Below, one piece after another: positions 305 to 48,820 of a stretch of 64,000 bases of DNA; positions within the stretch are counted from its first letter, which is position 1; every line of letters begins with the position of its first letter. A program made the position numbers and the translations under genes. Origin of the DNA: Microvelia longipes (taxonomy: Eukaryota; Arthropoda; Insecta; Hemiptera; Veliidae); assembly GCA_018340805.1 (NCBI GenBank), contig JACMZG010001914.1, forward strand, positions 17,654,736 through 17,718,735, given 5' to 3'. The notes below the pieces were generated by a model that made no database searches, was not told the DNA's origin, and worked only from the letters and a program-made list of their open reading frames with translations.

Positions 305-478
305 TGGAATATCCCTTGACCAGTTTCGGCTTAGAGACATCATCAGGAGGCGGAGCAACACTCAACCTCTGAACTAATAAAGTCATACATATCAGTGAAT
401 AACGTTTTAGTAGAGAGCTCGAGTTTCCCCACCTGCTGATGATGACCTTAAGCCGAAACCGGTTCAGGGATATTTAAA
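305..478. repeat. Foldback element A (hammerhead-bearing)
   Basis: This is an imperfect palindrome. The left arm (about 305-350) runs from AATATCCCTTGACC through CATCATCAGG, and the right arm (about 428-475) is its inverted counterpart, CTGATGATG through GGTTCAGGGATAT. The spacer is about 75 bp and unique. Each arm, read outward, carries CUGAUGA - short stem - GAAAC, the conserved half of a hammerhead ribozyme. The left arm is more diverged: it reads GAAACUGGUC and its stem I is weak. No target-site duplication is clear. It is probably a non-autonomous mobile repeat. Confidence 0.6.
432..468 (+). ncRNA. Hammerhead-ribozyme-like motif, right arm of foldback A
   Basis: The core is present on the + strand: CUGAUGA at 436-442, a 3-bp stem II (444-446/452-454, one A-C mismatch) with loop CUUAA, GAAA at 455-458, the self-complementary CCGG at 459-462, and U-U at 463-464 as the predicted U16.1-H17 cleavage position. 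Stem I is CCUG (432-435) paired with CAGG (465-468). Stem III would be too short to close alone; ACCGGU is self-complementary, so a dimer could form it, as known for hammerheads of Penelope-like elements and newt satellite. Activity is inferred only. Confidence 0.6.
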
Positions 479-3400
479 TCCAACAGCAATATTCGACGGT
501 TGCTGATACTTAAAAATAATGAAATTCATCGTTCGTGTTTACGAACTAATTTGGTTATAAATAGGGTATGTTTATAAAGATAAATACATTGCGAATAAAT
601 AGAAGTTCATCCAGGAAGGGAGGCCACTCATGTTGTTACAAAGCTGCCAACAGTTTAAAGCTTAAAGTAAGAAAAGGTGCTGGGATTGTTTCTCACACAT
701 AAACCTCAACCACGTGCTTCCTCTCGTACTAGACTATCTAACTAGATTACAGAAAACTCGAACGTAGCTTTCCCATGCAGTTTTACCCCATTATTGTTTC
801 CTGGCTACAACCATTAGTCAATTTCACACCTCTCCGACCTAAAACTTTCAGCAATGTCTGACAAAATCACTGACAACATCTATTAGACTCTTTTCCTTGT
901 TCCCTCTTTATTTTCGTGTCACTATATAATATAACAAAACTTGCAAGGCACAAAGTACGGTTCATAAAACAACTAGAAAATAGAGAGATAAAAGTCTCAT
1001 ACGACAGTAAAGCTCTTATTAGACGAGGCAAAAACCTGATTTAGAAAATTTTCATACCTGAACTATCTCAATGTTAATTTTTCCTATAACATTCCTTTTC
1101 AGACAACTGCTTAAATGAATAAAGTTTTTAATTTAAAATTAACTTAATTTAATACATTTCATCGTCGTTCCTTTAACCTATCAAAGGTTAATCTAACTTA
1201 GATGCACCCTGAAATTAGTTGCATCTGAGTTGATAAATAGCGGAAACTCAAGTTAATAAAATGATGTTACATGAGAATGAAAATAGGGTTTGTTACTTCA
1301 TTAATAATTCAAAGTTTGTACTGCACCTAAATCCATTTCCATCCTTTATCTTTATTTATGTGAGCATTTTACATACGTGGATTTAAACTTAAAAGGTTTT
1401 TGTTCCCTGCTCTAAATGTTTTATTGCTTGTTGTAAAAAACTATCAGCAAATTTGTCAAAATTTAGTCTAACTAAAACTGCGTTTCCTCTTTTACTAGGT
1501 CAGGGATTTGTACGAATCTTTACTGTTTTGTGTGATGGAGTGAATGGAGTGAGGCATCAGACTCAATGTCTTGTGCATTACAGTATGGTGACTGGGAAAG
1601 TCTAATTTTTTTGTGCTATAGATTCTATGAAACGAGAGATCTTACACAATATCTGGTGTGATACAGCATGTGAATAGTGCGATTGACAGTATGAAATGAA
1701 AATGTTTGCATTGTCCTATACCATGGAACAGGTGGAGGAAATCAAACCTACATCAGCTGGTGCTATAATGTAGAGCTCTAAATTTTTCTATGTCTTGCAC
1801 AATGCAATTCTGGGTGTCTCATAGATGAAAGGTATGGAGCGAGCAATTCTGAAATGATTGAGGAGATAAATCATCCTGCATTATCAAGTGCATTATTAAG
1901 TGCATTATTAAGTGCAAGATTGTTTTTTCTAGTATGAGTTCAAAAAAACTTACTAGATGGCACTGGTCCAATTTATTTAGCTGCTTTTAGTTAAATGACG
2001 GAACTCATCGATAACAGCTGGTGACTTATAGCATTTTTATTTACACGAACAAGAACTATAGGAAGTGAATAAAAGAGACAGGTGGAGAGTTTAGTGTGCA
2101 CAGGAATAAGTAAAGGAGCATTGATAGGTAATAAGAGTCCAACAACATATGCTATTAACCTGGTTTTACCTTTGCAGCTCTATTACTTATACTATCTAAC
2201 CATGGACAACCTTTTTTGGGTAAAATTTATCAAATTCTATGTAGGGTAATCAGTGTTTAAAGTGTAGCGTGTGTGGTCGTTTATACCGAGTTCTAACTAC
2301 TGGCGTGTGAACCATAGAAATTCACGGCTCTTCTGTCTAGATTAGATGAAATATACCTACACTTGAAATTCAAAGGAGTAGAACACTATCTTAGGGAGTT
2401 GACAAAAAGGGCCCAACAACGTGACTTACTTGCTTGGTAGTTACTACCACTCCCCCATATTACTACTACTACTACTAACTACTGGCGTGTTAGAGTTAAA
2501 TAAGTTCCATACACTATTAAATTTGGAAAACAAATATCTAGAAACGTTGCCATCCTATTATCAATACACATACTTAGCAATGTGTATAGCAAATAAAACA
2601 ACCATCTATACAAACGGCTACATACATACAAATCAATATAAATGGCTCTGCACAAAGGCTGTGGCAATTTGTAGCTCACGCTTTAATGGTTCAAAATTGC
2701 TAATTAACAAAGAATAAAAATAGTACTCACACACAAAATTTAGATGTATTTATATGTTTGTATTTGCATGTATTTAAAATTACGAAACAGTCAGAAAGTA
2801 GCTTCCTCTGTTATTATTCGTTAAAAAATGAATAAAAACTTTGACCAAGTCACCTTTAAAATTTGATACACTATTATGTTAAACAAAAATATCTTATGTT
2901 ACACATTAATACGAATCATAATCACGAATGTAACGTCAATTATTAAATATTTAAAACATTGCTAAGCTCAGGATGGTTCATTTCATTTGACGACTTTCGT
3001 CTTTAAGATATTGTGTCAGAAAAATGTCGAAATCTTTGCCACTAGAAGTTCTAATCATTTTTTCGTCGTTTTTAGTAGATCAGTAGTTGTTTTAAGTTAA
3101 TTAAGCCAAGTCTTAGTTCCCTACTTAACAAATCTCCCACTCATCAAAACTATATTATGTAAGTGAAAGTTACAAACAAAATTCTTGGCTTTGTAAAACA
3201 ACAAGACAATCCTACAGACACACCGTTGCCTTAGTAACCGGTCAAATACCACACGAGATCCGCACTAATAGGCGACGATGAATCTTCCGCATTTTCATTA
3301 CAATTGATCTACAACGCTCGAAATTTAAATTTAATTTTTTATTGGCGTTTTATGGTGAGAACAAAAATAACTTTTCATTTTTGAAACTTTATTCATTCAT

Positions 3401-4082
3401 GTTTGCAATTAATATTTAATATGTAAACCAAAGATTCGATCTTTTGAGTGATTTATGAATTGTCTTTTAATACCGAACAAGAAGTTAAAAACATATTAGC
3501 TATTGCAGAGCTATTGTTTTAATGATTATTTTTACATTATAGAAATCAGTCTAAAACTTTGTTTAAATATTTAATTTTTATTGTAATCAAAACTTCTGTA
3601 GAAATTTTATTAAATAGATTATAACAGTGGGCTATGCTGATATTGAGCACTTTTTATGTATTTTCTATAGATTTTTTTATTTGTAGCTAGGCTCAAATTG
3701 TGAATTTATTTTGAAGCTAATTTTTGAGTCAGTATTATTTTAATTAAGATTTTGACGCTTCAACAATTGTAAACTAATTTGCAGGTTAAAGTTAGTCCCT
3801 ACCTTGATCAGGTAGCGCAATGTATGAAAGGTAGGAAAGAATTGTAGCTGGATTAAGCTTGCAACCGCTTTTATTTGCTTATTTCAAAGAAAGTCACGGT
3901 AATGAGGTCTTCAGCAAGTCCCAAGTCAAATGTTTCGAAAGATCCCTTTCGCTCAGCCTCCCGATTTTAAATATATATTTATATGTTATGTGTTCGGCGT
4001 AAGCAACTAACATCTAGTAGCTAGCAAGTCGCTTATTTCGAACATAATGGTCATTCTAACCACACTTTGCAATACAAAAATT
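479..4082. other. AT-rich intergenic sequence, no gene supported
   Basis: No coding region with recognisable domains is present. A 98-codon open frame at 2421-2717 has a hydrophobic start but no family resemblance and I do not call it. The phrase CTAACTACTGGCGTGT occurs twice in direct orientation (near 2293 and 2475), suggesting a duplicated fragment. Nothing else stands out. Confidence 0.5.
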
Positions 4083-4134
4083 GCTGAGTTAATATATAAT
4101 ATGCTGAGTTAATATATAATATGCTGAGTTAATG
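4083..4134 (+). repeat. 20-bp tandem repeat, about 2.5 copies
   Basis: The unit GCTGAGTTAATATATAATAT is repeated exactly twice, followed by a third partial copy that diverges after GCTGAGTTAAT. Confidence 0.8.
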
Positions 4135-8920: not shown

Positions 8921-8986
8921 AAATGATTTTAATCGTAAACAAAAAGAGGTATTAATGGACTGTAAAAAAATTAACTAGTGAAAAGG

Positions 8987-9722
8987 TTTATAAAAGAAGA
9001 CAGCAGTCCAAATATAGTTGAAAAACAACTACCGAGCTTTCAACCAGGATCCTGGTCGTCATCCCAGTCTTGTTGTTTATGTTTTAATAAATCTATTAAA
9101 ACATAAACAATTAAACAATTAACATAAACAAGATTATAAACATTAAACTAAATAAACCAACAAATATACAATATCAAATAGTGTAAGAGAAAACAACAAA
9201 AGATAAGAGTTATCAAAGATAACTCTAAAAATAAGATTGAGAAGTACAGAGTAACAACAAGTTATAACGCAACACGATGAGATTACGGAGCATAATTGAA
9301 AAACAATTGAATAATTTACAAAAGTGAATAACTAAAGACAAAAACATAATAAGTACAAAACATACAATTTTTTATGTGTTTTGTGCTTATTTTATTGTTT
9401 TTGTCTTTAGTTTTTCACGTTTATAAATTATTCAATTGTCTTTAAATTATTCTCCATGTTTGTTGTAATCTCATCGTGTTGCGGTTTATAACTTGTTGTT
9501 ACTCTGTACTCTCATCTTCTGTTAGCTTATTTGATAACTCTTATATTTTGTTGTTTTCTCTACACTATTTGATATTGTATATTTGTGGTTTATTAGTTTT
9601 GTTTATAGTCTTGTTGTTTATGTTTTTAATAAATCTATTTACCCTGATGACGACCAGGATCCCTGGTTAAAAGCTTGGTAGTTTTTTTCAACTACATTTG
9701 GACTGCGTCTTCTTTTATAAAA
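8987..9722. repeat. Large foldback element B (hammerhead-bearing)
   Basis: This is a palindrome of about 735 bp with arms of roughly 360 bp and almost no spacer (centre near 9358). The arms start at TTTATAAAAGAAGAC and match over long tracts, for example CAATATCAAATAGTG against CACTATTTGATATTG. Near the outer end of each arm is a hammerhead-like core: minus strand about 9065-9029, plus strand 9640-9680. The minus copy has GAAA but GGGAUGA instead of CUGAUGA; the plus copy has CUGAUGA but AAAA instead of GAAA. No protein is encoded; the open frames inside are by-products of the palindrome. Confidence 0.75.
9640..9680 (+). ncRNA. Hammerhead-like motif, right arm of foldback B (mutated core)
   Basis: CUGAUGA is at 9644-9650. 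Stem II is a perfect 6 bp, ACCAGG/CCUGGU at 9653-9658/9662-9667. AAAA at 9669-9672 stands where GAAA is expected; the other arm keeps GAAA. Then GC, U (9675) and U (9676), and stem I UACC (9640-9643) with GGUA (9677-9680). The G-to-A change in GAAA should abolish cleavage, so this copy is read as a relic. Confidence 0.5.
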
Positions 9723-14332: not shown

Positions 14333-15340
14333 ATGCAAGAAAACAGCGGAGGACTAAACGAGGTAATGGAGACCAATCAACTTACTATGACGGACAAACC
14401 AAATACACCAGAACAATATGACACACATGACATGGGTCCATACCATGTTATAATACAACACAAAAATACCAATTCTAATAATAAAGGAATATCAAAGACT
14501 CCACCCCATGACGATAGGTAAAACTATTACATGAAACCTTAGGATTTAAAAACAACGAAATTACTCAAATAACCAGTATTTCTGTGAACAAAATAAAAAT
14601 AACACTTAATAATAGAATTAATGCAAACAAACTCATAACTTCCCAAACACTAAATGAAAATTATAACACATTCATACCAAAATCAATAATCTACAAAAAA
14701 GGGGTTGTTCGGGGAATTGAGCAATCCTTAACAGAATTAGAAATTTTACAAAATATGAATTTTCAAAATACAAACATAAAACTAATTAACGTTAAACGAA
14801 TAACAAGAAAAGTGATTGACAACAATACACCAAAATTTATCCCCACACAATCAATATTTATAACAGTTTGAGGCCAATCATTACCACCTTACGCTTATCT
14901 ACACTTTGTGAGATGCCCAATTGAACCGTACATTCCCCGAGTAATACAGTGTCAAAATTGTCTCCGATTTGGACCATAGAGAAATTGATTGCAAAGGTTC
15001 TACCCGCTGTGAAACATGCGGGTTAAACCCTTCAACTCATGGAATAAATGATAAAAACGAGATACAACAATGCCCTAAAATAACTTCCCCCATATGTATT
15101 CACTGTAAACAAGGACATAAGACAACAAACTTAAAAGACTGTCCCGAATTTAAAATTCAAAAAAGCATAAAGAAAACTATGGTACAAAATAATATATCTT
15201 TCGGCGAGGCAAAATTACAAATTAGTAACAAAACATATGCAACAGTCCTTCAATCCGAACCAACTGAAACTATTCCCAACCTAACCATAAAACTGAATCA
15301 CGCAAATATCAAATACAAACCTTACCAATCCCCAAAATAA
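14333..15340 (+). pseudogene. LINE ORF1 (gag-like nucleic-acid-binding protein), broken
   Basis: Three open pieces (14333-14521, 14584-14871, 14969-15340) form one ORF1 with a frameshift near 14515, an in-frame TGA at 14869-14871 and an extra C near 14971. The middle piece has the RNA-recognition-like region typical of I-type ORF1 (GVVRGIEQ, then a basic stretch). The last has the zinc knuckles: C-x2-C-x4-H-x4-C across CQNCLRFG and HREIDC once the extra base is ignored, a cysteine-rich middle finger (RCETCG), and CIHCKQGH...DC (C-x2-C-x3-H-x7-C). ORF1 proteins coat LINE RNA and act as chaperones. This copy cannot make an intact product. Confidence 0.8.
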
Positions 15341-15618
15341 TCCTAAGCGCCAAAAACTTCATCATATAGCCCCCGACAATAAACTATATACAAACCCCTA
15401 TAAACCCCAAACAAACACCGGGAGGACTGATACAGTCAAATCCCTATAAACCAATGACTCCTACTGAAACTATAATATTGACATTAATCACAACACATAA
15501 TAAACATTATAACTGAAGTAACAAAACAATATTTACAATTAACACAAACATTACCCAAACTCACATAGACGACAATACTATAAAAACTTAATACATTCTA
15601 AACTCAACTCGCCATAAC
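15341..15618 (+). other. LINE inter-ORF region
   Basis: This is a C/A-rich spacer with no open frame of note. It ends just before the first ATG in frame with the endonuclease (15619). Confidence 0.5.
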
Positions 15619-16500
15619 ATGTCTTGGCCTCTTAACAAGACAAACAACCACTGCAGTGTCTTGAATGCTCGCAGGTTTAACTTGCGAGCATTCAGGATAC
15701 TGCAGTGGAACATTAGGTCAGCAAATAACAAAAAACATTCTCTTGAACACCTCTTATTCACATCCAATATTGACATAGCATGTCTTTCTGAGACATGGTT
15801 TGACAAACAAACTAATATCACCTTTAAAGGATATAATTTACTATCTTTTAACAGACAAGACGACAGAAAGGGTGGTGGAGTCACAATATTAATTAAATCT
15901 AATATACAGTACAAACCACTCCATAACCTAACACACATACACACAGACATTATAGGAATAAATAACATATAAACACTCAACATTAAATATAATTTCATTA
16001 TACAACCCACCAACAAATAAAATAACGACAAACCAATGGCTTAATTTATTCAACTCTTTAACCACCCCATACCTAATATTAGGAGACTTTAACAGCCATC
16101 ACACGGCATGGGGATGTACTTATAGTGACTTAAAAGGAGACAACTTACTGACAGCAATTGAAGATACCAATACAATTGTTCTTAACAATCACAAACCAAC
16201 CCTAATACCCAAAATAAATCAAAAAACTAACTCTGTAATTGACCTTTCTCTAGCTTCTAACAATATTGCAACGGACTTTACATGGACAATTTTAGACGAC
16301 CCCCATGGTTCCAACCACCTCCCTATAATAATTGAAACAAACTCTTTTAATATACCTAAACTATACAGGTATCCAGCAAGACGCTGGAATATTGATAAAG
16401 CTAACTGGACAGAATACCATGACACTTTACTAACTTTGACACAAAAAGTATTAGATAATCACATCCAACCACTTACGATGAATTTATACAAGACATTAAC
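15619..16500 (+). pseudogene. LINE ORF2, apurinic/apyrimidinic-type endonuclease domain, broken
   Basis: The open frame 15619-15972 starts the domain: LQWNIRSANNKK near residue 30, then IDIACLSETWF with the catalytic glutamate, and GGGVTILIK. A frameshift near 15965 breaks it. The rest continues in other frames to about 16400 with YLILGDFNSHHTAWG (about 16070-16115), SVIDLSLAS and GSNHLPI, the exonuclease-endonuclease-phosphatase motifs that nick the target DNA. The final motif is SNH rather than the usual SDH, which is also seen in LINE endonucleases. The chosen start is the first ATG upstream of the conserved LQWN motif. Confidence 0.8.
15648..15708 (+). repeat. 61-nt hairpin at the start of LINE ORF2
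   Basis: Positions 15648-15677 pair with 15679-15708. All 30 pairs form in RNA: 27 Watson-Crick and three G-U wobbles (15658/15698, 15661/15695, 15674/15682). The arms begin CCACTGCAGT and contain TGAATGCTCGCA. It is coding: both strands read similar peptides across it (LNARRFNLRAF forward, LNARKLNLRAF reverse). It lies about 30 nt after the putative ORF2 start. Confidence 0.85.
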
Positions 16501-17417
16501 GACGCATGCAAAAATCTATCCCTGAAATAAAGAAACGTAAAATTACTTCAATTCCGTACCCTAATTTAATTCATTGGTGGGACTCTAGTTGTGAACAAAC
16601 TAAAAACGATCGTTATAATGCTTACCAAAATTACAATACTAACCCTAACTTACAAACTTTTATTAGTTTCAAAAAGAGCAAATGCTAATTTAGACGAACA
16701 TTAAAACGTAAACAAAAAAGTGGTTGGAAAAAATATTGTGACAGCTTAAACTTTACAAAAAATTCCCCATCTTCTGTTTGGAAATCTTTTAGAAAAATAA
16801 ACAAAACTGAAATTAATGACTCCCATACTAATACAGGACCATGGCTCGAAGACTTTATGGACAAACTTGCCCCTCCATCAGTTACCAACATAACTCTCAC
16901 CCTATATCCAACCAATAATAATCACATACTGACCGAAACTTTTACAATCAATGAATTAAATGCTGCAATAAAGCACAGTAATACTGCTCCCGGCTTTGAT
17001 AATATACTTTATGACATGATACATCACTTACCAACAATATCAAAACAAATTCTTTTAAATATATTTAATAATATTTGGACTTCTCAACAAATCCCTGACT
17101 CATGGCGCACATACATAATACTCCCAATAAAAAAACCAGGAAAAACTGTTGACATAGCTTCAAACTATAGACCAATATCTTTATCATCTTGCATGCTGAA
17201 GACATTTGAAAGATTACTAAAAAATAGATTAGAATGGTGGTTGGAATCCAATAACAAACTGCCTTTTTCACAAAAGGGCTTCAGAAGAAATAAATCAACC
17301 CTAGAAAGTCAAACACAACTAACAAATGACATACATAGTGCATTTACTCAAAAAAAATCAGTATTATCTCTCTTATTAGACATCACCGGAGCTTATGACA
17401 ACGTAGATTTAACTATA
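16501..17417 (+). pseudogene. LINE ORF2, linker and reverse transcriptase, N-terminal part
   Basis: After a broken linker (16506-16688 open, stop at 16686-16688) the frame 16857-17447 encodes the front of the reverse transcriptase: AAIKHSNTAPGFDNILYDM, SWRTYIILPIKKPGK, NYRPISLSSCMLKTFE, QKGFRRNKSTLE and LLLDITGAYDNV, which holds the first catalytic aspartate (motif A). The match ends exactly at the TA at 17416-17417, where the pogo-like element is inserted. The codons after that belong to the transposon. The domain resumes at 20236 in the compatible phase. Confidence 0.85.
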
Positions 17418-17440
17418 GGGGAGGGTGGGGCAAGATGGGG
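17418..17440 (+). repeat. Left terminal inverted repeat of the pogo-like element
   Basis: The 23-bp terminus is GGGGAGGGTGGGGCAAGA then TGGGG. It differs from the right terminus only at one position (T here, C there). Confidence 0.95.
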
Positions 17441-17624
17441 AATTTAAGGTTTCAAGGGTAATAAAATGTTAAATAATTATTAGAATTACTTGAAAAAAAT
17501 GAAAATATATTTGTCAACTATTTGTACTTAATGTAAGATGTATAATAATATGTTAAAAACTTAGTATCTGTTTAATTAAAAAAAAAAATCAAATCAAATC
17601 AAATAAACAAAAAATACAGTAAAC

Positions 17625-17674
17625 GGGGCAAGATGGGGTAGGCACTCCATCTTGCCCCTATAGATGTAAGATGG
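17625..17674. promoter_or_regulatory. Subterminal repeats, left side of pogo-like element
   Basis: GGGGCAAGATGGGGTA at about 17625-17640 is followed by the inverted CCATCTTGCCCC and by GTAAGATGG. They repeat the core of the terminal inverted repeat and are probable extra transposase-binding sites (inference). Confidence 0.6.
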
Positions 17675-17681
17675 AGTCCTA

Positions 17682-17750
17682 GGCCTGTATTCAAAGACAT
17701 TTTCCTAACATTCTCCTTAAGGAACAAGAAAATTTCTTTGAATACGGGCC
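17682..17750. mobile_element. 69-bp micro-MITE (PIF/Harbinger-like termini) inside the pogo-like element
   Basis: GGCCTGTATTCAAAGACATT on the left and CTTTGAATACGGGCC on the right are near-perfect inverted repeats with only about 30 bp between. The termini match those of the 1039-bp element at 35682-36720 (GGCCCGTATTCAAAGAC), including CCTAACATTCTCC inside. Flanks are CTA on the left and TTA on the right, so the 3-bp target duplication is imperfect. It looks like an extreme internal-deletion derivative. Confidence 0.65.
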
Positions 17751-17777
17751 TTAATCTTGGAATTTAATAATCTGAAT

Positions 17778-18026
17778 CTAATCTTTACAAAGGTCGCATA
17801 TGTGCACAGCTTCGGCATCCTCGTCTTCCTCTCCTGCACAGGAGCAATGCGCCCATCGCCTACAAAGGCTACATTGGATCCACCCTTCTGTTGACCTTGA
17901 ATACAAATCACCGCAATATAAACATTCGGTGTCAGTAGCTTCAGCTTCTGACGAAGAAATTGATTTATCACGTTTCTTTCTGTGCCTTTTATTACCACCT
18001 GTCATAGTTTGAAGTCTTTTTGTCAA
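17778..18026 (-). pseudogene. PHD-finger tail of the pogo-like transposase, out of frame
   Basis: About 82 codons encode a basic, serine-rich linker (GNKRHRKKRDK, SSSEAEATDTE) and then a PHD zinc finger with C4-H-C3 ligands: CLYC, CSLC, WAHCSC, CDLC. PHD fingers usually bind histone H3 tails. The frame starts with no ATG; it continues upstream as RAKKNLTKRLQ. It is offset by one base from the transposase that ends a few bases upstream, across a long A-tract (seen as T at 18047-18061). A one-base slip in that tract most simply explains the split, so this was probably the C-terminus of one protein of about 650 residues. Confidence 0.75.
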
Positions 18027-18033
18027 ATTTTTT

Positions 18034-19737
18034 TTAGCTCTCTTCTTTTTTTTTTTTTTTTTCTTTTCTTAAATTTATTTCTGCTTGTAGTTCGTTTTTG
18101 TACGGAGATTCCGTCAAAACAGCTGTTTTACCACGTTTTCGTCTATTCTTTTTTAAAATAAGTCCGCTGCACGAGGGAATTGGTTTAATATCTTCTGGTG
18201 TGGGAGCTTTTATAATTCTTTCTTTGGACGATAAAGCAATCTCAGGCGTGTTAGCTATTGGTTGAGACGTAGAGGCAATGGGCGATGATGCGACGTTAGA
18301 AGCAACAGTCTGAAGAATGTCAGAGGTAGAAACTTGCAACATATTGTTTGGAGAAGCAATATGAGTGATATCCGAGTGAGAATCTGGTAAAGATATGATT
18401 TCACAGGCTGGGCTAGCGGTGGTAGGTTCTAATAAAGGCCTATCAGTTGTAATTGATGGCGCATAGTCATGTTCATCAAAGACATTTTGTTTGACAGGCC
18501 AAATGCCTGTTTTCCGAAAGCCATTCATAGCTGTTGACATTGTAGCAGCTTTAATGAAAGCATTGCCATATAATTGTGATATTTGAAATAAAGTTACTAC
18601 ACGGCCAGGATTTGACCTAAGCCAGGAGGTAACCTCTTGGTCATAATAAACACTTAGTGGTTTCATTAAACTCACATCAAGTGGCTGTAGACGATGAGTG
18701 CAGTGAGGTGGGAAGCACAACAATACTACACCATTTTCCCGAGCATAGTCTATAAGGTCCATATTTTTTGTGTGGGTAAAGTGTCCATCTAGGAGCAACA
18801 GAACTGGTTTATCCTTGCTTGCTCGGCTCCATTCAACAAATTTTTTAAACCACTTAAAAAAAATATCAGACTGCATCCAACCACTAGGATGATAAGATGC
18901 CCAAGCTCCAGGAGGACAGTCATTCATAAGCTGATCATTTCCACGAACTCGGGGAAAAACAAATAAAAGGGGCATATATGACCCTGCAGCATTGTAACAC
19001 ACTTCTATGGTTACCGTGTTTCCTCTCTCAGCTGATGTCAACACTCCTACTTGTTTTCTTCCCTTAAGGGATAATATTTTCGACCGATGTTTTGGTACTA
19101 CAGTGACCCCAGTCTCGTCACAGTTGTAGATCCTATCAGGGGTAAAGTTGTATTTATCCATGAGTCCATTTAGCAAATTAAAAAAGTTTGTTACATTTGG
19201 TTTGTTAAATGCAGTTGCTCTAGCAGCACTTGTGGCTTCAGGTTTCCTAAGAGCAATTTGAGGATGTCTAGCTTTAAACCCACTTAACCAGTCTTTACCA
19301 GCCACTTGCTTATCCTGAGAGAAAGTGTGTTTCTTGCCCAGTCTATCTGCCCATTGATAAGCTAATACTCTTAAGTCGTAAGAAGATAATCCAAATAACC
19401 TTTCTTCCATTTTTAATACATAGTCCACTAATAACTGTTCTTCTTCAGCCGAAAAAACTGTTGTAATAGGGCCAAGACTCTTCACAAGCATCGGGTTTTC
19501 CTTGTTAGGATAGATATTACCACTACTGGATGCAGTAAAAATTACAGATTCTACAGTCTTTTCACCGTTTTCTCGGGCTATTTTAACTCTCCTTTCCAAA
19601 GTGGTCTGAGGAACTAGAAAAGACTTGGCTGCTCGTTGGTATCCCATGCTGCCACTGATAACAGCTTCAATTGCATTTTTCATTGATTCAGGGTTCCATC
19701 CTCCTCGATTGGTCTTTCTTTTATAAGATCTAACCAT
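18034..19737 (-). CDS. pogo/CENP-B-type transposase (DDE_1 superfamily), 567 aa
   Basis: This enzyme cuts and reinserts its own element at TA sites in the nucleus. Residues about 12-55 form a pipsqueak-type helix-turn-helix (NAIEAVISGSMGYQRAAKSF). About 95-165 form a CENP-B-type DNA-binding helix-turn-helix (SAEEEQLLVDYV to DWLSGFKARHP). The catalytic core follows, with aspartates at about D207 (YNCDETGV), D317 (LLLLDGHFTH) and D354 (LQPLDVSLMKP). The C-terminal 130 residues are Ser/Thr/Pro-rich and end in a lysine tract encoded by an A-run. The main body is open without a stop over 567 codons, suggesting recent insertion. The ATG at 19735-19737 gives the family's usual start, a short basic segment before the first helix-turn-helix. 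Confidence 0.92.
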   Translation of the reverse strand: MVRSYKRKTNRGGWNPESMKNAIEAVISGSMGYQRAAKSFLVPQTTLERRVKIARENGEKTVESVIFTASSSGNIYPNKENPMLVKSLGPITTVFSAEEEQLLVDYVLKMEERLFGLSSYDLRVLAYQWADRLGKKHTFSQDKQVAGKDWLSGFKARHPQIALRKPEATSAARATAFNKPNVTNFFNLLNGLMDKYNFTPDRIYNCDETGVTVVPKHRSKILSLKGRKQVGVLTSAERGNTVTIEVCYNAAGSYMPLLFVFPRVRGNDQLMNDCPPGAWASYHPSGWMQSDIFFKWFKKFVEWSRASKDKPVLLLLDGHFTHTKNMDLIDYARENGVVLLCFPPHCTHRLQPLDVSLMKPLSVYYDQEVTSWLRSNPGRVVTLFQISQLYGNAFIKAATMSTAMNGFRKTGIWPVKQNVFDEHDYAPSITTDRPLLEPTTASPACEIISLPDSHSDITHIASPNNMLQVSTSDILQTVASNVASSPIASTSQPIANTPEIALSSKERIIKAPTPEDIKPIPSCSGLILKKNRRKRGKTAVLTESPYKNELQAEINLRKEKKKKKEES

Positions 19738-20233
19738 TTTGTTAAACCTGCAAAATAAATTAAAAATAAGTAAACAAAAGTGGCAACAATATTGTGGGGT
19801 AAGACGGGGTACTACCCCATCTTACCCCAGTGACAAATCCCCATCTTGCCCCACTGATGCCATGACAAACACATGTTATCATATCTAAGGTTATAGTCAC
19901 ACATTTTTAAATTATAATTATGTAAATTAATCACTATAAATTACACAATTCAAAATTGATTTGAATTATTTAAATAAATAAATGTACGTTACCTCTAATC
20001 AGCATCAAATTGTCACCATTCAAAATAACGTTTTATGAAAAATCAAGAAAAATATCAATAATTCAGCCTCTAGCCTAAACAAATTACGCAAACCTACAGG
20101 TTTCAATTTATGATACTTTCGTCTTTATCACTGATAAAAATTCACATTATCGCCACACTGTGGCAGCACTAGTAACGCAGAAATATCATGTACCCCATCT
20201 TAGCCCTATACCCCGTCTTGCCCCACCCTCCCC
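19738..20233 (-). promoter_or_regulatory. 5' end of pogo-like element with subterminal repeats
   Basis: This is the upstream region of the transposase and should hold its promoter. Four variants of the terminal core (GGGGTAAGACGGGGTA, ACCCCATCTTACCCC, CCCCATCTTGCCCC) cluster at about 19795-19858, and two more at 20191-20226. No TATA box is obvious. Confidence 0.55.
20211..20233 (-). repeat. Right terminal inverted repeat of the pogo-like element
   Basis: The reverse complement reads GGGGAGGGTGGGGCAAGA then CGGGG. The TA target duplication follows at 20234-20235. Confidence 0.95.
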
Positions 20234-20235
20234 TA

Positions 20236-20848
20236 CTTTACCACAAACTTTTACGACTAGACATACCAAAACAAACTGCAAACTTTATCATTAAATTAAT
20301 AACTGACCGAATCCTTCTTTTTCGAATTAACGGTCAAATAGTCGGACGTAGACTCACAAGACGAGGTGTCCCTCAAGGGGCCATCTTAAGCCCACTTTTA
20401 TACTTAATACATACCTTTGACTTAGAACAAATTATAACCCCTCCTGTAAAAATACTTCAATTTGCTGACGACATACTTATATATACTATAAACAGCAAAA
20501 TAAATGACATGATAACCGACCTAACTAACACCCTAAAACAAATACAAGAATGGACTAAACTTACTGGGTTAGAACTATCCCAAGACAAATCTGAATGTTG
20601 CATCTTTACAAGACGTAACAATATCCTTCTTGATGACGAGATTCTTTTTGACAACATAAGAATAAAAAGAAAAAGAACTGTTAGATTTCTAGGACTCTAC
20701 CTTGACCAAAAACTGACATGGAAAGACCATATAAATACAGTAGTCTCAAAATGTGAAAAATACCTTAACATCATGAAAATGGTCAGCAATAAAGCATGGG
20801 ATGTGACCCAAAAACTCTTATTACATTTTATAGGGCAACAATACGGGC
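20236..20848 (+). pseudogene. LINE ORF2, reverse transcriptase, C-terminal part
   Basis: Codons resume immediately after the TA with LYHKLLRLDIPK, then RRGVPQGAILSPLLY (motif B) and LQFADDILIY (motif C, catalytic DD at about 20467-20472), then FLGLYLDQKLTWKDHI of the thumb. The open frame begins earlier (20188), but codons before 20236 belong to the transposon end. Frame is lost at about 20836: the conserved continuation TIRACIDFASP reads in a second frame to about 20868 and PIYGNAK in a third. These are two indels about 30 bp apart. Confidence 0.88.
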
Positions 20849-21787
20849 ATGCATAGACTTTGCCTCCCCATTTACGGTAATGCCAAACAATACTTACTTA
20901 CAAAACTAGACCGTTTACAATACAGAGCTTTAAGATTATGTATGGGATATCTTAAATCCACACCAATAACAATAATACATACTGAATGCTCAGAACCACC
21001 ACTTAACATACGAAGACAATATCTAACTGACAAACACTTCATTAAATTATATTCTCAACAATCTCCTTTACTTACAACTATTGTCAATTTAAACAACAAA
21101 ATAAATAATAATCATCGATACTGGCGACATAAAACACCTCCATTACATATAAATAGCTACAAACTATTACAGCCTCATCTCAACCAAAGTATATACCAAC
21201 ATAAATTACTCCCAATCTATCAAATTTCTTTTGACGATATCTACCAAACAATAACAATAAACATACCAAAACTAACTTATCCGTACAACAACATAACTTT
21301 CCATGAACAACTATACAACATACATCACAACCACCTACTTAATATTTACCGACGGATCAAACAACAAGACAAAACTGGTTACTCATATTATGACTTACAA
21401 CTAAAAATTGGACAAAGTTTTTCATGCCCACAGTACACTAACATATTTACATTAGAAAGCTTAGGAATCTTACAATCTCTTACATATATAAAAACATTAC
21501 AAAATACTCAAAACAAATACACTATTGCTTGCGACAACCAAGGAATACTTACAAAACTATCCAACATTTCACTCACTTCCAAAATAGATCACATATATAT
21601 GCATATCCTACAAGAAATAAACGAACTGACCAAACAGTACAAACAAATAGACTTTATATGGGTAAAATCACACTCTGGAGTCCAGGGAAATGAACAAGCT
21701 GATCACCTTGCAAAAAATCCACAAGATCATCGAGCTATAAAATACCTGCAAGTGATCTTATATCAGTATCAAAAAAGAAAATGCTAG
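20849..21787 (+). pseudogene. LINE ORF2, thumb/connection and RNase H domain
   Basis: The frame gives PIYGNAKQYLLTKLDRLQYR, as in the thumb and connection of I-type LINEs. Later it gives the RNase H domain: ACDNQGILTKL (catalytic Asp) and IWVKSHSGVQGNEQADHLAK (His and Asp). The first RNase H motif, TDGS, is present at 21348-21359 but in a different frame, so compensating small indels surround it. RNase H removes the RNA strand after first-strand synthesis and marks this as an I-like, not a Jockey- or RTE-like, element. Confidence 0.85.
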
Positions 21788-22257
21788 AAGACTGGAACAC
21801 CAAACTCAACGAAGAACCAGAAAAGGGGAAAATTTTTAAAGAAATCATCAAGATAGTTCCCGCTAAACCTTGGTTCTGGAAATCGAGACTGTCAAGAAGA
21901 GATATTGTCTGCATAAACAGATTAAGAAGTCAACATGCCAGATGCATTCAATATCACTACAAGATTGGGTTAAGCGACTCCCCAGCATGCCACTCCTGCC
22001 CGACAATAGACGAAACAGTAGAACACATCCTCCTAGACTGCACAAAATACAAGACAGAACGGACAAAATTATATCAAGATGTCAAACTTCAAGATATCCA
22101 AGACAATACTGAAAAAATCAAGACTCTGCTCTTCTCAAAATTAAAAAATATAATAAATACACTCAAATTCGTAAATAAAATTACTATTCCCCTTAGCCTC
22201 AAAAAAAAATCTAGAGACCAAACCTTAACAGTTAAACCCCCAAACGTAAAAAAATAA
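21781..22257 (+). pseudogene. LINE ORF2, C-terminal region with CCHC motif
   Basis: The frame encodes WFWKSRLSRRDIVCINRLRS and then the C-terminal zinc motif CHSCPTIDETVEHILLDC (C-x2-C-x8-H-x4-C), as found at the end of I- and R1-type ORF2 proteins. It ends in a lysine-rich tail and a TAA at 22255-22257. It overlaps the preceding RNase H frame by 7 bases, so one more frameshift lies at the junction. Confidence 0.85.
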
Positions 22258-27535: not shown

Positions 27536-28942
27536 CTACTTAATACTTTGTCCATTAACTAGATACTTAAAACTTTTCAAGAAAAAATATGGCAAAATGA
27601 AGAAAATTATTACATATAAATATTCCATAATATTCCATTTCAAATATTGAAACATAAAAAGTAAAAAAAAAAGTTTTGTGTATCTCTGAAAAACTTAATG
27701 CAAAATTGATCATTTAAAAGTGCAGCGTGGAGGCCCTAGCCACGCTGGGTGAATTTCCTTTCGCAAACAATATATATTTTTGCGAAATATGGAATACTTC
27801 GAAAACTTGTTTTCGATTTATTTTCAGTCTTATTATCAGGATTACTACTTGTTTGCCTGGTTTTCTTAAGTTTTCAAAGAAACCGAGAATGTTTTCCCTA
27901 TATGTTCCACTAACCATGCATGTCCTTTCAAAATCAGTTCTACTCAAAATTTTGCGCTCACATTAAAAGCTCTGTCTATGCTAATCGTTGAACTGTTTCA
28001 GTGCATTTTGCTTAAGCATGAACATTGACTAAAAAGTAGTAATGCTACCGTTCAGGTTATGGTTATTCAGATTAATCATAAACCTAAAACTTATTTGGTA
28101 AGCTAGTTTCTGTTTCCCAATTAAAAAAATTAGAGTAATCAGCGAATTGGAAATACAGAATTGGATAGGCATGCCAATTGTAGTAGGTACTGAAATATTT
28201 CTCACAACCATCAGAGAGTCTTAAAATGAACTCTAATGTTTTCAAAATGTTATAATTCGATTAGTTAAAAGTAGTCTGGTAGAAGAAGTTACAGTTTTAT
28301 CAAACTTAATGTTCAAAAGAAAGCAAGAAACTTTGGCAGGAATAGCAAGTTTGTAACTGTAGTCAACCAAAAATACGAGATTAGACTTTTTACGACTCAT
28401 TTTTTCGTTTTACTGTTAGGAAAGGATTCATAGAATTTTATCTACTTCAAAGTATCTGGAAAATATGATAAAAAAGTCAAGAGAGGATAAAAATATGTTT
28501 CTGATTGGTAAGATATAGGTAAAGGATTTCCAAGTTTTTATAGGTTTTCAAACCAGTCACAGGAGAAAAAAACTTGCTCTTTCCAAAACTTAAAAAAAAA
28601 TAGATAAAGAAAAAAATTGGCAAAGAATAGTTGTTTTTAACAAATGTACTGCGTCAAAAAATGCTGACAGCATGGTGCATTGAATTGAGAGTGGTGGCAG
28701 AGTTTAATCTGGCAAGTCTCTTTTAACTTCAACCCGTGTACAAATTGATACATGTACACTCATCAACACAGTGAAGGCTGAACCGATGAAATTGATTCAA
28801 AAACCACCATTGAAAGAGCGAAGAGTTTTTTAAGAGATTTTTTGGGGAAATCCAACCGAACTTCTTGAGACGGAAGAAATTATGAATTTTTAAAATTAAA
28901 AGAAAAAAAATAAACTGCGTAGGCTTCTGCGGTTATTGTCAT
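27536..28942. other. Sequence without supported genes
   Basis: Open frames of 60-79 codons at 27714-27966 exist on both strands over the same bases and show no domain. Nothing else is recognised. Confidence 0.45.
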
Positions 28943-29192
28943 GAAGATTTAGGTCTTCAGGTGATGACCCCGCCAATATACATGATGAATCCGGCGTTTC
29001 GCTTCCACTGTGGGAGGCATCTTCAGGGGTGTATGACATCATGAATGAAAACACAAGTTCAGTTTTCTTGAGCATTATATTTTCATTTATGATGTTCTAT
29101 GTCCCTGAAGATGCCTCCCACAGTGGAAACAAAATGTCGCATTCTTCATCTGAATTGCCGCGGTCACCACCAGAAGACCTAATTTTTTAAAA
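28943..29192. repeat. Foldback element C1 (hammerhead-bearing family)
   Basis: The arms run from GAAGATTTAGGTCTTCAGGT inward through CGTTTCGCTTCCACTGTGGG and GCATCTTCAGGG, and the mirror image ends at CCACCAGAAGACCTAA. Both arms carry the hammerhead-like block read outward. In the left arm (minus strand 29026-28989) U16.1 is mutated to C (GAAACGCC). In the right arm GAAAC reads AAAATG. Both are probably inactive. The plan is identical to C2 at 38843-39127, so the palindrome itself was mobile. Confidence 0.7.
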
Positions 29193-30554: not shown

Positions 30555-31151
30555 TGATAAATCCATTTTAACCATCAAAATCGGTCCAGTAAAACCGGAG
30601 ATACAAATGTTGAAAGATTACCGAAAAAACATCTAAAAAGCATACATTTTTGTCCAAAAACGCACAAAAACCTTAAAATGTCATGTATTTCCATATGAAC
30701 ATGTTTAGGAATTAGGCAGACTTAAAAATTATGCATATTCTGTTAAGCTACAGGTAATATAAAGTTGTTCTAGATAAAGAAATCAGTACAGCTCTAATAT
30801 GTGATGACTTAATGACCGACATATAATGCTGAAAAAAAGTGTATTTTCTACAATTTAAGTGTTTACCTATCTTTCAGCATTATATGTCGGTCATTAAGTC
30901 ATCACATATTAGAGCTGTGCTGACTTCTTTCTCTAGAACAACTCCATATTACCTGCAGTTTAACAAAATATGCATGATTTTTAAGTCTGCCTAATTCTTA
31001 AACATGTTAATATGGGAAAACATGACATTTTAAGGTTTTTATGCGTTTCTGGACAAAAATGTATGCTTTTTAGATGTTTTTTCGGTAATCTTTCAACATT
31101 TTATCTCCGGTTTTACTGGACCGATTTTGATGGTTAAAAAATGGATTTATC
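30555..31151. repeat. Large palindrome within the CAGTGGCG element
   Basis: Arms of about 280 bp (30555-30835 and 30871-31151) are separated by about 35 bp. They match closely, including CATTAAGTCATCACATATTA and GACCGATTTTGATGGTTAAA in the right arm with their inverses in the left. Confidence 0.85.
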
Positions 31152-31935
31152 ATGTTAACCGGCTTTCGTGTTATCAGTGGTATTACATTGTGTTTACGGT
31201 CCTGTGCTCCTTCTATGTATAGTATTATTCTAAGCACAGGTCACACAGTTATTACTGAAAGACCTAACTGACCGTTATGTCGTAATTGGAACTTCGAGAT
31301 AATATTTCGGACAAGCCTACTTTACTTTGTATTGTTCACTGTTTTCAAATTATTTGTATATCTTTCATTTTTATATATGTATTTGATATATTATGATATT
31401 TATATTATAAGTTTATTGTTAAAAAAATATATGTTATTTAATTTATTATTTTTATATATTTTTATAGCTTTTTTTCACACATTTATTGCGGGTTTAGGTT
31501 ATGTAAAAATTTCGGGGGGGGGGGGAGCCCCCTCAGCCCCCCCTGGCTACGCCACTGTGTGCTAATTATCATCTCATTATCAGCATTAGTTCAATTTTTA
31601 TTAAATGACTTGTGTACGTTTTTTAAAAAAATTTTAAAAAATTATAAAATGGTCCAATGGAGTTGAAATTTAGTACAAGTGTATATTACTACCTAATAAA
31701 TAATTACATTAAGTTTCGTTTTAATACGACAAAATAAAGAGTATTGAGCGTGGTCAGTTCTGTATGGGTGATCGCTGAGAATGATACGGAAGCATTTTCT
31801 ATCTGAAGACGAGCGAAGCGAGTCAAAAGGCATGTTGCAGCATAATTTTGGTGAACTGTATTTTGGAGGACGTGCGAAGCGAGTCCGAAGCAGGGAGGAT
31901 GAGCGTAGCGAATACGATGTAACGGGCTAACAATA

Positions 31936-38835: not shown

Positions 38836-38842
38836 CGTTCAT

Positions 38843-39127
38843 GAAGATTTAGGTCTTCCGGTGGTGACCACGTTAATGTAGATGAGGGATCCGACGTTAC
38901 GCTTCCACTGTGGGAGGCATCTTCAGGGATATAGGACATTATGGATAGAAACACAATGCTCTACAAAACTGAAACTGAACTGATGCACAACAAAATAGTT
39001 CAGTTTTGTAGAGCATTGTGTTTCTATCCATAATGTCTTATATCCCTGAAGATGCCTCCCACAGTGAGCGAAACGTCGGATTCTCCATCTACATTAACGC
39101 GGTCACCACCGGAAGACCTAAATCTTT
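38843..39127. repeat. Foldback element C2 (hammerhead-bearing family)
   Basis: A close palindrome: the arms begin GAAGATTTAGGTCTTCCGGT and pass TCCACTGTGGGAGGCATCTT to ACACAATGCTCTACAAAACT, with a centre near 38985. Same layout as C1. The left-arm core (minus strand 38926-38889) reads GTAA in place of GAAA but keeps stem I AUCC/GGAU. The right-arm core is intact and listed separately. Confidence 0.8.
39042..39081 (+). ncRNA. Hammerhead-ribozyme-like motif, right arm of foldback C2, core intact
   Basis: CUGAAGA is at 39046-39052 (fits CUGANGA). A short stem II follows (39054-39055 and 39057-39058 with 39066-39069, one bulged C). GAAA is at 39070-39073, CG at 39074-39075, then U-C at 39076-39077 as a GUC cleavage triplet. 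Stem I is AUCC (39042-39045) with GGAU (39078-39081), perfect. ACGU is self-complementary, so stem III would need a second molecule or copy. Cleavage would fall after 39077. Confidence 0.65.
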
Positions 39128-45211: not shown

Positions 45212-45288
<77 letters not shown>

Positions 45289-45300: not shown

Positions 45301-45559
45301 ATAATCTTAATCTCATAAGCTTATTTTAAGAAATGAAAACCTTACAAATTAAAAACGAAGCCCTCTATCTCGTAAAATAAAGATAGTTATTTATTTGTAA
45401 TTTTGCAATGTTTATTCTTTTATTGTGTACAACTGTAGTAGTTGGACTGTCAGGAACTTACAGGAACTCTTCATTATTCTACCTTTGTGTGCGGTAATAA
45501 CTGCATGCTTAGTGAAAACAATGAAGTTCTAGTTTTTACAGTTCGACCAAGGATGTAAA

Positions 45560-46218
45560 TAATTCTGGCGGTGGTCCGCATGTCGGGCGAATTCCTTTGG
45601 ATGCGTGTTTCCGTGCCTTTTACATTCTATAAGTTTACAACTACTAAATAAATAATTCCGGCGCGGTGGTCCGCTGTCGGGCGAATTTCATTTAGAATGC
45701 GTGTTTCCGTGCTAAACAACCATATCTTGCTTATGCAAGAACCATGCCCATTGCGTGGTTCGTTCATGCTGTCAAGCACTGCTCGTAACTCATTTTGTCT
45801 GTATTTTCCAAAGGAAATGCGCATAATTATCTAGTTGGTTGTACAAAACTATGCCTCTAAAATTAAAGTACGCACTATTATTTGCACTAGTTTAAAGCTT
45901 AGTTACTTATCTTTAAGCTTAGTCAGTTATCTTTAAAGGTTTTAGCGCATTTCCTTTGGAAAATACAGACAAAATGAGTTACGAGCAGTGCTTGACAGCA
46001 TGAACCGGAACCACGCAATGGGCATGGTTCTTGCATAAGCAAGATATGGGTTGTTTAGCACGGAAACACGCATTCTAAATGAAATTCGCCCGACAGCGGA
46101 CCACCGCGCCGGAATTATTTATTTAGTAGTTGTAAACTTATAGAATGTAAAAGGCACGGAAACACGCATCCAAAGGAAATTCGCCCGACATGCGGACCAC
46201 CGCGCCAGAATTATTTTC
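45560..46218. repeat. Large foldback built from SINE-like sequence
   Basis: Arms of about 275 bp (45560-45838 and 45930-46218) are almost identical inverses; they include GCACGGAAACACGCAT, CCGCGCCGGAATTATTTA and ATGGGCATGGTTCTTGCATA. The 90-bp centre contains TTGTACAAAACTATGCCTCT. Read on the minus strand the outer part has TGGCGCGGTGGTCCGC, an A-box-like phrase. It lies in intron 1. A related single-arm copy is at 59940-60235. Confidence 0.8.
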
Positions 46219-46404: not shown

Positions 46405-46480
46405 TCGACCTACTAGGATTTGAACCCAGGTACTCTGGGTTTTGAGTGGTCGTATTGACTCCGCACCACTGGCATTCAAC
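46405..46480 (-). repeat. tRNA-derived SINE head, copy 2
   Basis: Minus strand: AATGCCAGTGGTGC (46476-46463, A-box-like) and GGTTCAAATCC (46426-46416, B-box), then CTAGTAGGTCGATAA. It is in tandem with copy 1, sharing CCAGAGTACCTGGGTTCAAA. Confidence 0.6.
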
Positions 46481-46497
46481 TCAGAGGCCCAAAAAAC

Positions 46498-46795: not shown

Positions 46796-46854
46796 TATTG
46801 ACCTTTTCGCGGAAAAAATATTAACCTGAATTTTGCCGATTTTTGAAAATTTTG

Positions 46855-47195: not shown

Positions 47196-47338
47196 ATTGT
47201 CTTAAAAACACAAACAAATAAAAAATCAGCAGCTAAGCAGTGGATGCTACCCTCTCAATATTGAAACATTACATTAATTTAACAATTATTTTTTGTTGGA
47301 ATGCATTTCATAAGTTAATTTATTTTTTTGGTTAACAG

Positions 47339-47387
47339 AAACGAGCAGAAGAGTCAGATAGCGCTCAAAGAAGAAAATGTAACTGCG
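47339..47387 (+). CDS. Protease-like gene, exon 2: basic propeptide and CNC
   Basis: The acceptor is GGTTAACAG and the donor GCG|GTAAGT (phase 1). Sixteen codons read KRAEESDSAQRRKCNC, starting and ending with dibasic pairs (KR, RR) that could be processing sites. The first base of the next codon (G) closes the exon, and exon 3 supplies GA to make glycine, completing C-N-C-G. Confidence 0.55.
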
Positions 47388-48335: not shown

Positions 48336-48381
<46 letters not shown>

Positions 48382-48468
48382 ATATATATAATATATAATA
48401 TATATATATATTCTTGATAAGTGATTTCCTCTCTTTCAAAGTCTACCACATAAGTTCATTTTTCTTAG
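47388..48468 (+). other. Intron 2 of the protease-like gene
   Basis: It holds an R4 copy (47815-47955: GGCCTCTTAGCCACTACGCG, GTGGCATACTGCCAC), an R5 copy (about 48165-48300) and an (AT)n run (48330-48412). Open frames inside it are repeat-derived. Confidence 0.5.
48330..48412. repeat. (AT)n microsatellite
   Basis: Alternating AT next to an R5 copy, 57 bp upstream of exon 3. Confidence 0.9.
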
Positions 48469-48547
48469 GAAATTTGCTAAAAAGTAATCAGAGAAACATA
48501 AAAATGATGACAGGTAGTGAAAGAATTCCAGATAAAGAAGAGCTAAG
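48469..48547 (+). CDS. Protease-like gene, exon 3: zymogen junction region without IVGG
   Basis: The acceptor is TTTTTCTTAG and the donor CTAAG|GTGAGC (phase 2). The codons give GNLLKSNQRNIKMMTGSERI then PDKEEL. After C-x-C-G, insect trypsin-like zymogens have about ten residues and then R-IVGG; here K-MMTG stands in that place. If aligned so, the new N-terminus is non-canonical, which would suggest an inactive homologue. A weaker donor at 48514 (ACAG|GTAGTG, phase 1) would instead fit the phase of an exon starting at 58165. No exon beginning with the matching W-LA-type sequence was found in between. Confidence 0.5.
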
Positions 48548-48569
48548 GTGAGCGTTAATAGAATTCATC

Positions 48570-48820
48570 TAAATAAAAGAGGAAGAAGTCTCTCCACAAA
48601 ATATATTTCTTTATAGCAAAGCGCTTTCAACCTAACAAGAGGCCATCATCAGTGCTAGCCGTTGAATTAAGAAGAGGGTGATAGATGAGTCTTACAGATC
48701 AGATATCAAAGATAGACTATCTTGATGAATCTAGCACTGATAATAGCCTCTTGTTAGGTTGAAAGCGTTTTTGCTATAAAGAAATATATTTTTGTGGAGG
48801 GACTTCTTTCTCATTTATTA
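48570..48820. repeat. Foldback element E (hammerhead-bearing)
   Basis: Arms of about 90 bp run from GAAGTCTCTCCACAAAATAT to ATCATCAGTGCTAGC and mirror back from CTAGCACTGATAATAGC to GTGGAGGGACTTC, with about 65 bp between. The left arm, on the minus strand, has a complete hammerhead-like core. The right arm (plus) has CUGAUAA instead of CUGAUGA and so is probably dead, but keeps GAAA and the stem I pair UAGCA/UGCUA. The element begins 23 bp after the exon 3 donor. Confidence 0.8.
48614..48657 (-). ncRNA. Hammerhead-ribozyme-like motif, left arm of foldback E, complete core
   Basis: On the minus strand: stem I 5' side UAGCA (48657-48653); CUGAUGA (48652-48646); stem II of five pairs (48644-48640 with 48633-48629: two G-U, two C-G, one U-A) closing a 6-nt loop; GAAA (48628-48625); GCGC (48624-48621); U-U (48620-48619) as U16.1-H17; and stem I 3' side UGCUA (48618-48614), which pairs perfectly. 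AGCGCU is self-complementary, giving a possible dimer stem III. It is the best-preserved of the motifs in the window. Activity is untested. Confidence 0.7.

Follow-up and report, generated by a model that had tools for sequence, protein, structure and literature searches.

How does a genome come to hold short palindromes whose arms each carry an outward-facing hammerhead-like fold, and is the RNA of such elements cut in the animal? The question is raised by 64,000 nt of the hemipteran Microvelia longipes (GenBank contig JACMZG010001914.1, positions 17,654,736 to 17,718,735), a stretch of animal-like DNA of about 31% GC that we call the window; it is C565:17654736-17718735 in the host genome searched here (664.6 Mb, 1,470 contigs). 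A sequence-only reading had pointed to four places in it as palindromic. All four are inverted repeats and lie where that reading put them, although the elements extend beyond some of the limits it gave. It had also suggested that hammerheads might be tied to an undescribed sort of non-coding palindromic element. That part gave way: the arms have the anatomy of Penelope pseudo-long terminal repeats (pLTRs), the motifs have GIY-YIG genes as neighbours, and inverted pLTRs have been published from rotifers. The observation was, in short, partly confirmed and its interpretation partly supported. Because GIY-YIG loci carry the motifs downstream and the inverted pLTRs of rotifers match the anatomy, the foldback arms look like pLTRs of Penelope-like elements, not like a separate non-coding class. 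Taken as a whole, the explanation that we consider probable is that the foldbacks are non-autonomous Penelope-like insertions, made by the steps set out in the Discussion. Labels such as L001 and L044 denote loci cut from the host genome, and labels such as C562 and C564 its contigs.

Results

One tail in each inverted pair

Arms were mapped on single natural units (ref1, ref2, ref3), and pairs were picked by core positions, never by tails. Exactly one tail of about 31 nt is present in 74 of the 83 inverted pairs mapped; two tails are present in none (0/83). Family 3 was sampled through 27 distinct elements, namely 19 outward pairs, 6 of the eight places listed first and 2 in the window; in 26 of them exactly one arm reaches the tail end (229-240), the other ending at 203-221. 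The exception is window copy B, which has no tail; L027 has an extra piece of tail near its centre. The family 3 elements that begin near the predicted ribozyme cut, described below, have exactly one tail in 13 of 13 cases. Ten outward genome pairs and the window copy represent family 1, where the one-tail arrangement holds in 10/11 and the window copy has a partial tail. Two decayed tails of this family stop at 195, and in L096 the arm without a tail can be aligned as far as 187.

Family 2 was sampled at 31 distinct loci, 21 with an inverted partner and 10 without a usable one. Exactly one tail is seen in 16 of the 21 pairs, the other five being too damaged or irregular (L059, L064, L071, L072, L077). 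The partner is only 19 nt long in L063 and lies about 0.7-1.2 kb away in L060, L062, L079 and L084. For family 4 we took three picked pairs, the first nine places on the list that had no exact partner, and the window copy, which gave 11 readable pairs, nine with exactly one tail. The exceptions are L099, with one tail and a cut-short arm, and L105, with no tail; L107 and L109 gave no readable pair, and L109 is still palindromic.

Many of the foldbacks also lie between target duplications. The two flanks have a string of at least 8 nt in common in 22/27 elements of family 3, 8/11 of family 1, 9/14 of family 2 (out of the 21 pairs) and 6/11 of family 4, compared with 1.3, 7.3, 3.8 and 0.9% of mismatched flank pairs, respectively; these common strings may contain a few bases of the element.

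Inverted pairs predominate among the mapped loci, and direct tandem units are present at L003, L010, L011, L077 and C504. At the first three of these, direct units of about 99 nt (ref3 76-174) lie inside family 3 foldbacks and end 15 nt beyond the predicted cut site, not at it. We considered whether the elements are retrozymes, in which units of 170-400 nt are repeated in direct tandem with hammerheads at their limits, and set this aside, as inverted pairs prevail. Three foldbacks (C707:20728469, C707:20756224 and C1361:23624577) have a nearly identical centre with small differences. Given this common centre, some foldbacks may spread as units or through genomic duplication.

Penelope-like genes next to the same motifs

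A search of the genome for the GIY-YIG endonuclease domain (PF01541) gave at least 63 matches, with 150 of 843 candidates scored and the best 30 loci examined. A core on the same strand lies 100-900 nt downstream of the endonuclease domain at 20 of these best 30 loci, and an inverted core lies within 600 nt upstream at eight. About 2 and 1.5, respectively, would be expected by chance per 30 loci, at a rate taken from the core density of the window (11 cores over the 128 kb that its two strands make up, the true ones included). The GIY-YIG gene adjoins the same pLTR in family 2, where L044 carries the motif with 0 mismatches (C564:13674404), and in six further motif families. The units show the pLTR with an optional tail of about 31 nt, and the target duplication of variable length, by which a Penelope-like element is recognized. 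In families 1, 3 and 4, CTGANGATG sets an ATG, overlapped by CUGANGA-UG, at the place of the start codon in the anole element; family 2 has ACG there. Two family 3 loci, L010 and L023, extend further upstream, and the frame of L023 is open for at least 86 codons, ending in ..SHGYNLRPRRQGQRQV. We read this frame as the presumed end of the open reading frame (ORF) of the element.

A Penelope origin of families 1, 3 and 4 is suggested by shared anatomy. Against the explanation as a whole, no GIY-YIG gene tied by sequence to these three families was found, and the upstream peptide of family 3 pLTRs had no match at E<=1 in the 30 GIY-YIG loci. The family 4 motif does resemble the motifs of L034 and L047. 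Among the five window elements, only that of family 4 has a clear duplication, ATTCCAGATAA on both sides (1/5); the other four share 4-7 nt, with no clear duplication.

A conserved minimal hammerhead-like fold

The foldbacks carry a conserved minimal hammerhead-like fold, presumably of the dimer type, one per arm and facing outward. We compared ten motif families, with one natural copy each. The core CUGANGA..GAA, with A15.1-U16.1 and H17, is present in 10/10. As the sequence-only reading had proposed, stem I differs between families and still pairs: 37 of 40 positions are paired over its first four, positions 1 and 2 show every one of the four Watson-Crick types, and swapping 3' strands among families leaves 17.1 +- 3.4 paired, with 37 reached in 0/20,000 trials. 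Stem III, which that reading had seen to vary as well, is self-complementary in 10/10 families if G-U is allowed, and has A15.1-U16.1. The contiguous pairs of stem II number from 2 to 7, with 2 in family 3. This comparison covers families 1-4, picked by the sequence-only reading, and six others, four of which came from a scan that demanded 3 bp of stem I; in families 7 and 8, from a scan without that demand, stem I pairs 5/5. That reading had named a lack of covariation among genome copies as refuting it; across these ten families, the stems do covary.

Within the window we searched with a strict descriptor (stem I of at least 4 bp, CTGANGA, 6-29 nt, GAA, an A..T palindrome and a non-G base). 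The descriptor was shaped after the claim of the earlier reading; its rules for the core, A15.1-U16.1 and H17 apply to hammerheads in general. It matched three times, at 436 (+), 39046 (+) and 48652 (-). First-order Markov shuffles of the window gave a mean of 0.02 matches and reached three in 0/200, and nine scrambled cores used as control gave 0 matches in the window. Intact cores are present for families 1, 3 and 4, and that of family 2 is decayed. The claim of outward cores in all four families therefore stood in orientation and in the three strict matches, but not in every detail. The family 2 core is split between its arms, the right having CTGATGA but AAAA and the left GAAA but GGGATGA; the right core of family 4 reads CTGATAA; and the family 1 copy lacks a true stem II. 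We take the family 1 copy to be decayed, because most of the 100 genome matches listed for this family have a GGC/GCC stem II and C at position 17.

The motifs are abundant. Genome matches number 1,991 for the family 3 core (exact), 332 for family 2 (up to 3 mismatches, 64 of them exact), 2,058 for family 1 (up to 2 mismatches) and 5,986 for family 4 (up to 3 mismatches). The total of 10,367 is a count of motifs, not of elements; reversed-pattern controls gave 0 each time. A scan of viral contigs for the family 3 core gave 0 matches.

The covariance models of Rfam, which the sequence-only reading had named as a check, with a lack of significant hits as a refutation, count against the fold: no hammerhead match was found in the window, at the gathering cut-off or at E<=10, or in ten genome loci at E<=10. 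The top matches were microRNA models on AT or CA repeats and hairpins. The Rfam hammerhead models expect a full monomer, and for this reason we do not count an Rfam match as defining.

Arms begin at two preferred places

In family 3, 30 of 54 arm starts lie at ref3 74-80. A second sample, made up of 40 stretches (some two-armed) from about 50 listed downstream anchors without an exact core, plus L111 and L112, has 18 of 46 starts at 74-78. The region reads TCAGTT, 29 nt past the start of TATAAATA, and from its sequence it is a likely transcription start.

The second place is the predicted cut, C159^G160. Our first junction pattern was limited at 161, one base from its own peak, and the search was therefore repeated with the anchor at 173. 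The first pattern gave 19 junctions of the head-to-head kind; 13 of their arm starts lie exactly at 160, and two more are in a CCGG join scored as 159. The anchor at 173 gave 23 junctions with 46 starts, 11 of them at G160 (nine, plus the two of the CCGG join); the two lists have several junctions in common and are not independent samples. A uniform spread over 142-173, a simple null, would place 1.4 starts at each position, against 11 at 160. The next commonest starts are 162 (five) and 163 (four), and eight lie at 153-155. Eight of the 23 junctions have an arm at 160. The junction walk was gap-free, so that C562:5470789, which has an inserted base, was scored too far downstream.

Thirteen cut-site elements were picked because one arm begins at or near 160. 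The arm with the tail starts at 160 in 12 of them, as taken from exact reads for L156 and L158, and at 163 in L112. Ten of the 13 have a common flank string of at least 8 nt, compared with 2.6% of mismatched pairs. Outside family 3, L064 (family 2) begins exactly at GGTAG after the predicted cut, other family 2 arms start near the cut and not on it (105, 108, 111, 111, 116, 93 and 71), and the start of L106 (family 4) is ambiguous owing to a run of T. The joints hint at how such elements copy themselves, and that cleavage of the RNA may indeed take place in the animal.

One template or two

In six of 38 elements of families 1 and 3, the tail arm is internally shorter by at least 15 nt (L090, L092, L097 and L098 in family 1; L001 and window copy A in family 3; the arms of L092 were compared partly by eye). 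Neither arm of these six can be a copy of the other, barring later deletion, because each holds sequence that the other lacks. We set aside arm-to-arm identity as a test between one template and two, as there are too few shared variants.

Features of the window

The coordinates of the foldbacks and their cores are collected in Table 1. At least four further foldbacks in the window have no hammerhead core, as judged by comparing core positions with inverted repeats. Among the long palindromes, one at 30555-31152 is 600 nt long and near-perfect (91%) and has no hammerhead core; a second at 45557-46216 (89%) has direct repeats of about 95 nt inside and likewise no core. A non-long-terminal-repeat retrotransposon with broken frames (endonuclease, reverse transcriptase and RNase H) occupies 14518-22257 and is split by an antisense transposase frame of 595 aa at 18034-19821. 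Pfam assigns DDE_1 and HTH_psq to this frame, which we take to be of pogo type, a label that is ours and not given by Pfam. A tandem repeat at 60164-60586 is open on both strands, with VIQNYNSMER repeats.

Table 1. Hammerhead-bearing foldbacks, cores and target-site duplications of the window
Feature	Position	Strand	Remarks
Family 1 foldback (inverted pLTR pair)	259..511	none	Arms ref1 20-187 and 45-169; partial tail, left only
Family 1 right core CCTG-CTGATGA-TGACCTTAAGCC-GAA-ACCGGT-T^CAGG	432..468	+	Stem II not formed in window copy
Family 1 left core CTGATGATGTCTCTAAGCCGAAA	324..346	-	
Family 2 foldback	8948..9721	none	Arms ref2 1-187 and 1-149; tail only on left arm
Family 2 right core TACC-CTGATGA-stem II-AAA-AGCT-T^GGTAG	9640..9681	+	GAAA decayed to AAAA; read by eye
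Family 3 foldback, copy A	28912..29182	none	Tail left only; arms start at ref3 96 and 77
Family 3A right core CTGAAGATGCCTCCCACAGTGGAAA	29105..29129	+	
Family 3A left core CTGAAGATGCCTCCCACAGTGGAAGCGAAA	28997..29026	-	
Family 3 foldback, copy B	38839..39126	none	Tail absent on both sides; arms start at ref3 74 and 77
Family 3B right hammerhead-like core ATCC-CTGAAGA-TGCCTCCCACAGTGAGC-GAA-ACGT-C^GGAT	39042..39081	+	
Family 4 foldback	48536..48819	none	Tail left only; alignment 48543-48820, ends fixed by duplication
Family 4 left hammerhead-like core TAGCA-CTGATGA-TGGCCTCTTGTTAGGTT-GAA-AGCGCT-T^TGCTA	48614..48657	-	
Family 4 target-site duplication ATTCCAGATAA, left copy	48525..48535	+	
Family 4 target-site duplication ATTCCAGATAA, right copy	48820..48830	+	

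Discussion

We propose that a foldback would be two pLTR copies joined head to head, with their 3' ends outward. Each pLTR would run from a promoter-like start, itself a tentative assignment, through the minimal hammerhead to the pLTR end and the optional tail. Reverse transcription of the element RNA would begin at both 3' ends left by a staggered cut in the target: the tail site would be the starting point for one strand, and the pLTR end, about 31 nt further in, for the other. Each complementary DNA (cDNA) would then extend to the 5' end of its RNA, in most cases the start site and in some the hammerhead cut, or would stop early, and joining of the two cDNA ends would leave a palindrome between target duplications. 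The hammerhead would cleave part of the RNA, probably as a dimer through the palindromic stem III. Of this, we observed the covariation of the fold, the duplications of the target, the one-tail rule, the peaks at the start site and the cut site, and the GIY-YIG link of family 2; priming on both strands, the transcription start, self-cleavage and dimer action are presumed. That the insertions are made by target-primed reverse transcription coordinated on two strands, from the tail site on one and from the pLTR end on the other, and that part of the RNA is cut in vivo by the hammerhead before copying, so that the cut site becomes their 5' boundary, is in our judgment evenly balanced between right and wrong.

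A number of observations speak against this mechanism. The cut-site peak rests on one family, family 3. Most mapped arms cross the cut site, so that most templates would have been uncut. Cut-site elements are a minority, because the sample without exact cores, which should favour cut arms, yields a start at 160 in just 2 of 46 cases, of which one is the pre-chosen L111. The tail arm is longer by at least 15 nt in six elements (L010, L012, L015, L022, L023 and the window copy of family 1), and later deletion could mimic either the shorter or the longer shape. Arms diverge slightly less within elements (0.0445) than between them (0.0519), with 0/5,000 permutations as low, which fits a shared template equally well. 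In the anole Penelope element, hammerhead activity is not needed for insertion in vitro, and no strand difference in reverse transcriptase start was seen there (PMC11167929).

Two alternatives concern what the foldbacks are. Chance resemblance to a hammerhead would agree with the missing Rfam matches, but the descriptor result set against shuffles, the stem I covariation across ten families and the 10,367 genome matches against 0 for reversed patterns make it next to impossible. The palindromes could instead be DNA transposons of the miniature inverted-repeat transposable element (MITE) type with terminal inverted repeats, and the cores mere passengers. They are indeed short, numerous, non-coding and palindromic, and one centre is common to three copies with small differences. 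Against this, the ends are asymmetric, with one tail, flank strings vary in length, centres differ between copies and the motifs adjoin GIY-YIG genes, all of which makes a MITE origin highly improbable; the symmetric termini and fixed-length duplication that mark MITEs were not what we found. We know of no foldback DNA transposon with a one-sided tail or a ribozyme. Long inverted repeats are what foldback DNA transposons such as Tetris, as described in the accessible part of PMC4079207, have in common with the present elements.

Two others concern how the foldbacks are made. A single cDNA might fold back, prime itself and copy itself into a hairpin, as has been proposed, there on an antisense template, for Penelope palindromes of rotifers (PMC3846280, in the part available). 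The slightly greater likeness of arms within an element would suit such self-priming, as would ref3 99, where the minor base is in both arms of two elements against 0.35 expected and discordant in one against 4.5; the remaining three informative sites show no excess of an arm-shared minor base. Among cut-site elements with unequal arms, the tail arm is moreover longer in 6/7, the exception being L112. On the other hand, each arm of the six elements whose tail arm is internally shorter contains sequence that its partner lacks, and a copied arm should often include the tail, which no mapped pair has twice. We regard self-priming as unlikely. We also consider it rather doubtful that the peak at 160 marks a stop of reverse transcriptase at the folded hammerhead and not run-off from cleaved RNA. 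The starts at 162, 163 and 153-155 are what a structured RNA might give. A block at the near edge of stem I predicts, by our reasoning, starts near 164 and not 160, and the start at 160 falls on the tail arm in nearly all cut-site elements, though these were chosen for an arm at or near that position.

Much of the setting of Penelope-like insertion is already known: the element class, its ribozyme and inverted pLTRs. Penelope hammerheads are reportedly treated by Cervera and De la Pena (2014), and the title of a 2017 paper by Lunse states that variants cleave RNA as dimers. As the sequence-only reading had noted, hammerheads are known from Penelope-like elements and retrozymes (PMC11167929; PMC7229834, accessible part). 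In Penelope-like elements the hammerhead sits at the pLTR-ORF junction (Frangieh 2024, PMC11167929), and Penelope hammerheads are also in print in the accessible part of PMC7229834. The ORF of the anole element begins at stem II, its protein both cuts and extends the two strands of the target, and the sequence lying between two reverse transcriptase start sites forms the tail (PMC11167929); no RNA-seq reads start or end at the cut site (Frangieh 2024, PMC11167929). The present elements share the minimal hammerhead, the start codon at stem II and the tail. Unlike those of PMC11167929, the mapped ones are mostly ORF-less inverted pairs, and some arms end at the predicted cleavage site.

The closest published anatomy is that of bdelloid rotifers, whose Penelope elements, in the available part of the report, have inverted pLTRs, one of which can bear a 31-bp tail, and duplications of 8-10 bp (Arkhipova 2013, PMC3846280), as well as palindromic junctions and a pLTR that holds the first codons (PMC3846280). 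The head-to-head arrangement, the optional tail on one pLTR and the duplications are common to both. In contrast to the 74 one-tailed pairs among 83 here, the rotifer report, so far as its accessible text goes, deals with few copies, of which several have an ORF, and puts forward self-priming. Animal retrozymes are likewise non-autonomous, with type I hammerheads and possible mobilization by Penelope machinery, in the available part of PMC7229834; there they are direct tandem repeats with canonical hammerheads, whereas the foldbacks are inverted pairs with minimal ones.

A literature search, subscription papers apart, found no report of arm ends at a Penelope hammerhead site or of the one-tail rule. 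Possibly new are the high numbers of foldbacks without an ORF, the one-tail rule and the cut-site junctions. The role of the hammerhead in Penelope-like elements and the origin of inverted copies are open questions in the papers cited here. Where a genome has numerous short inverted insertions, their junctions offer a way to read both, and the one-tail rule and the cut-site peak can be tested as predictions in any genome where such elements abound.

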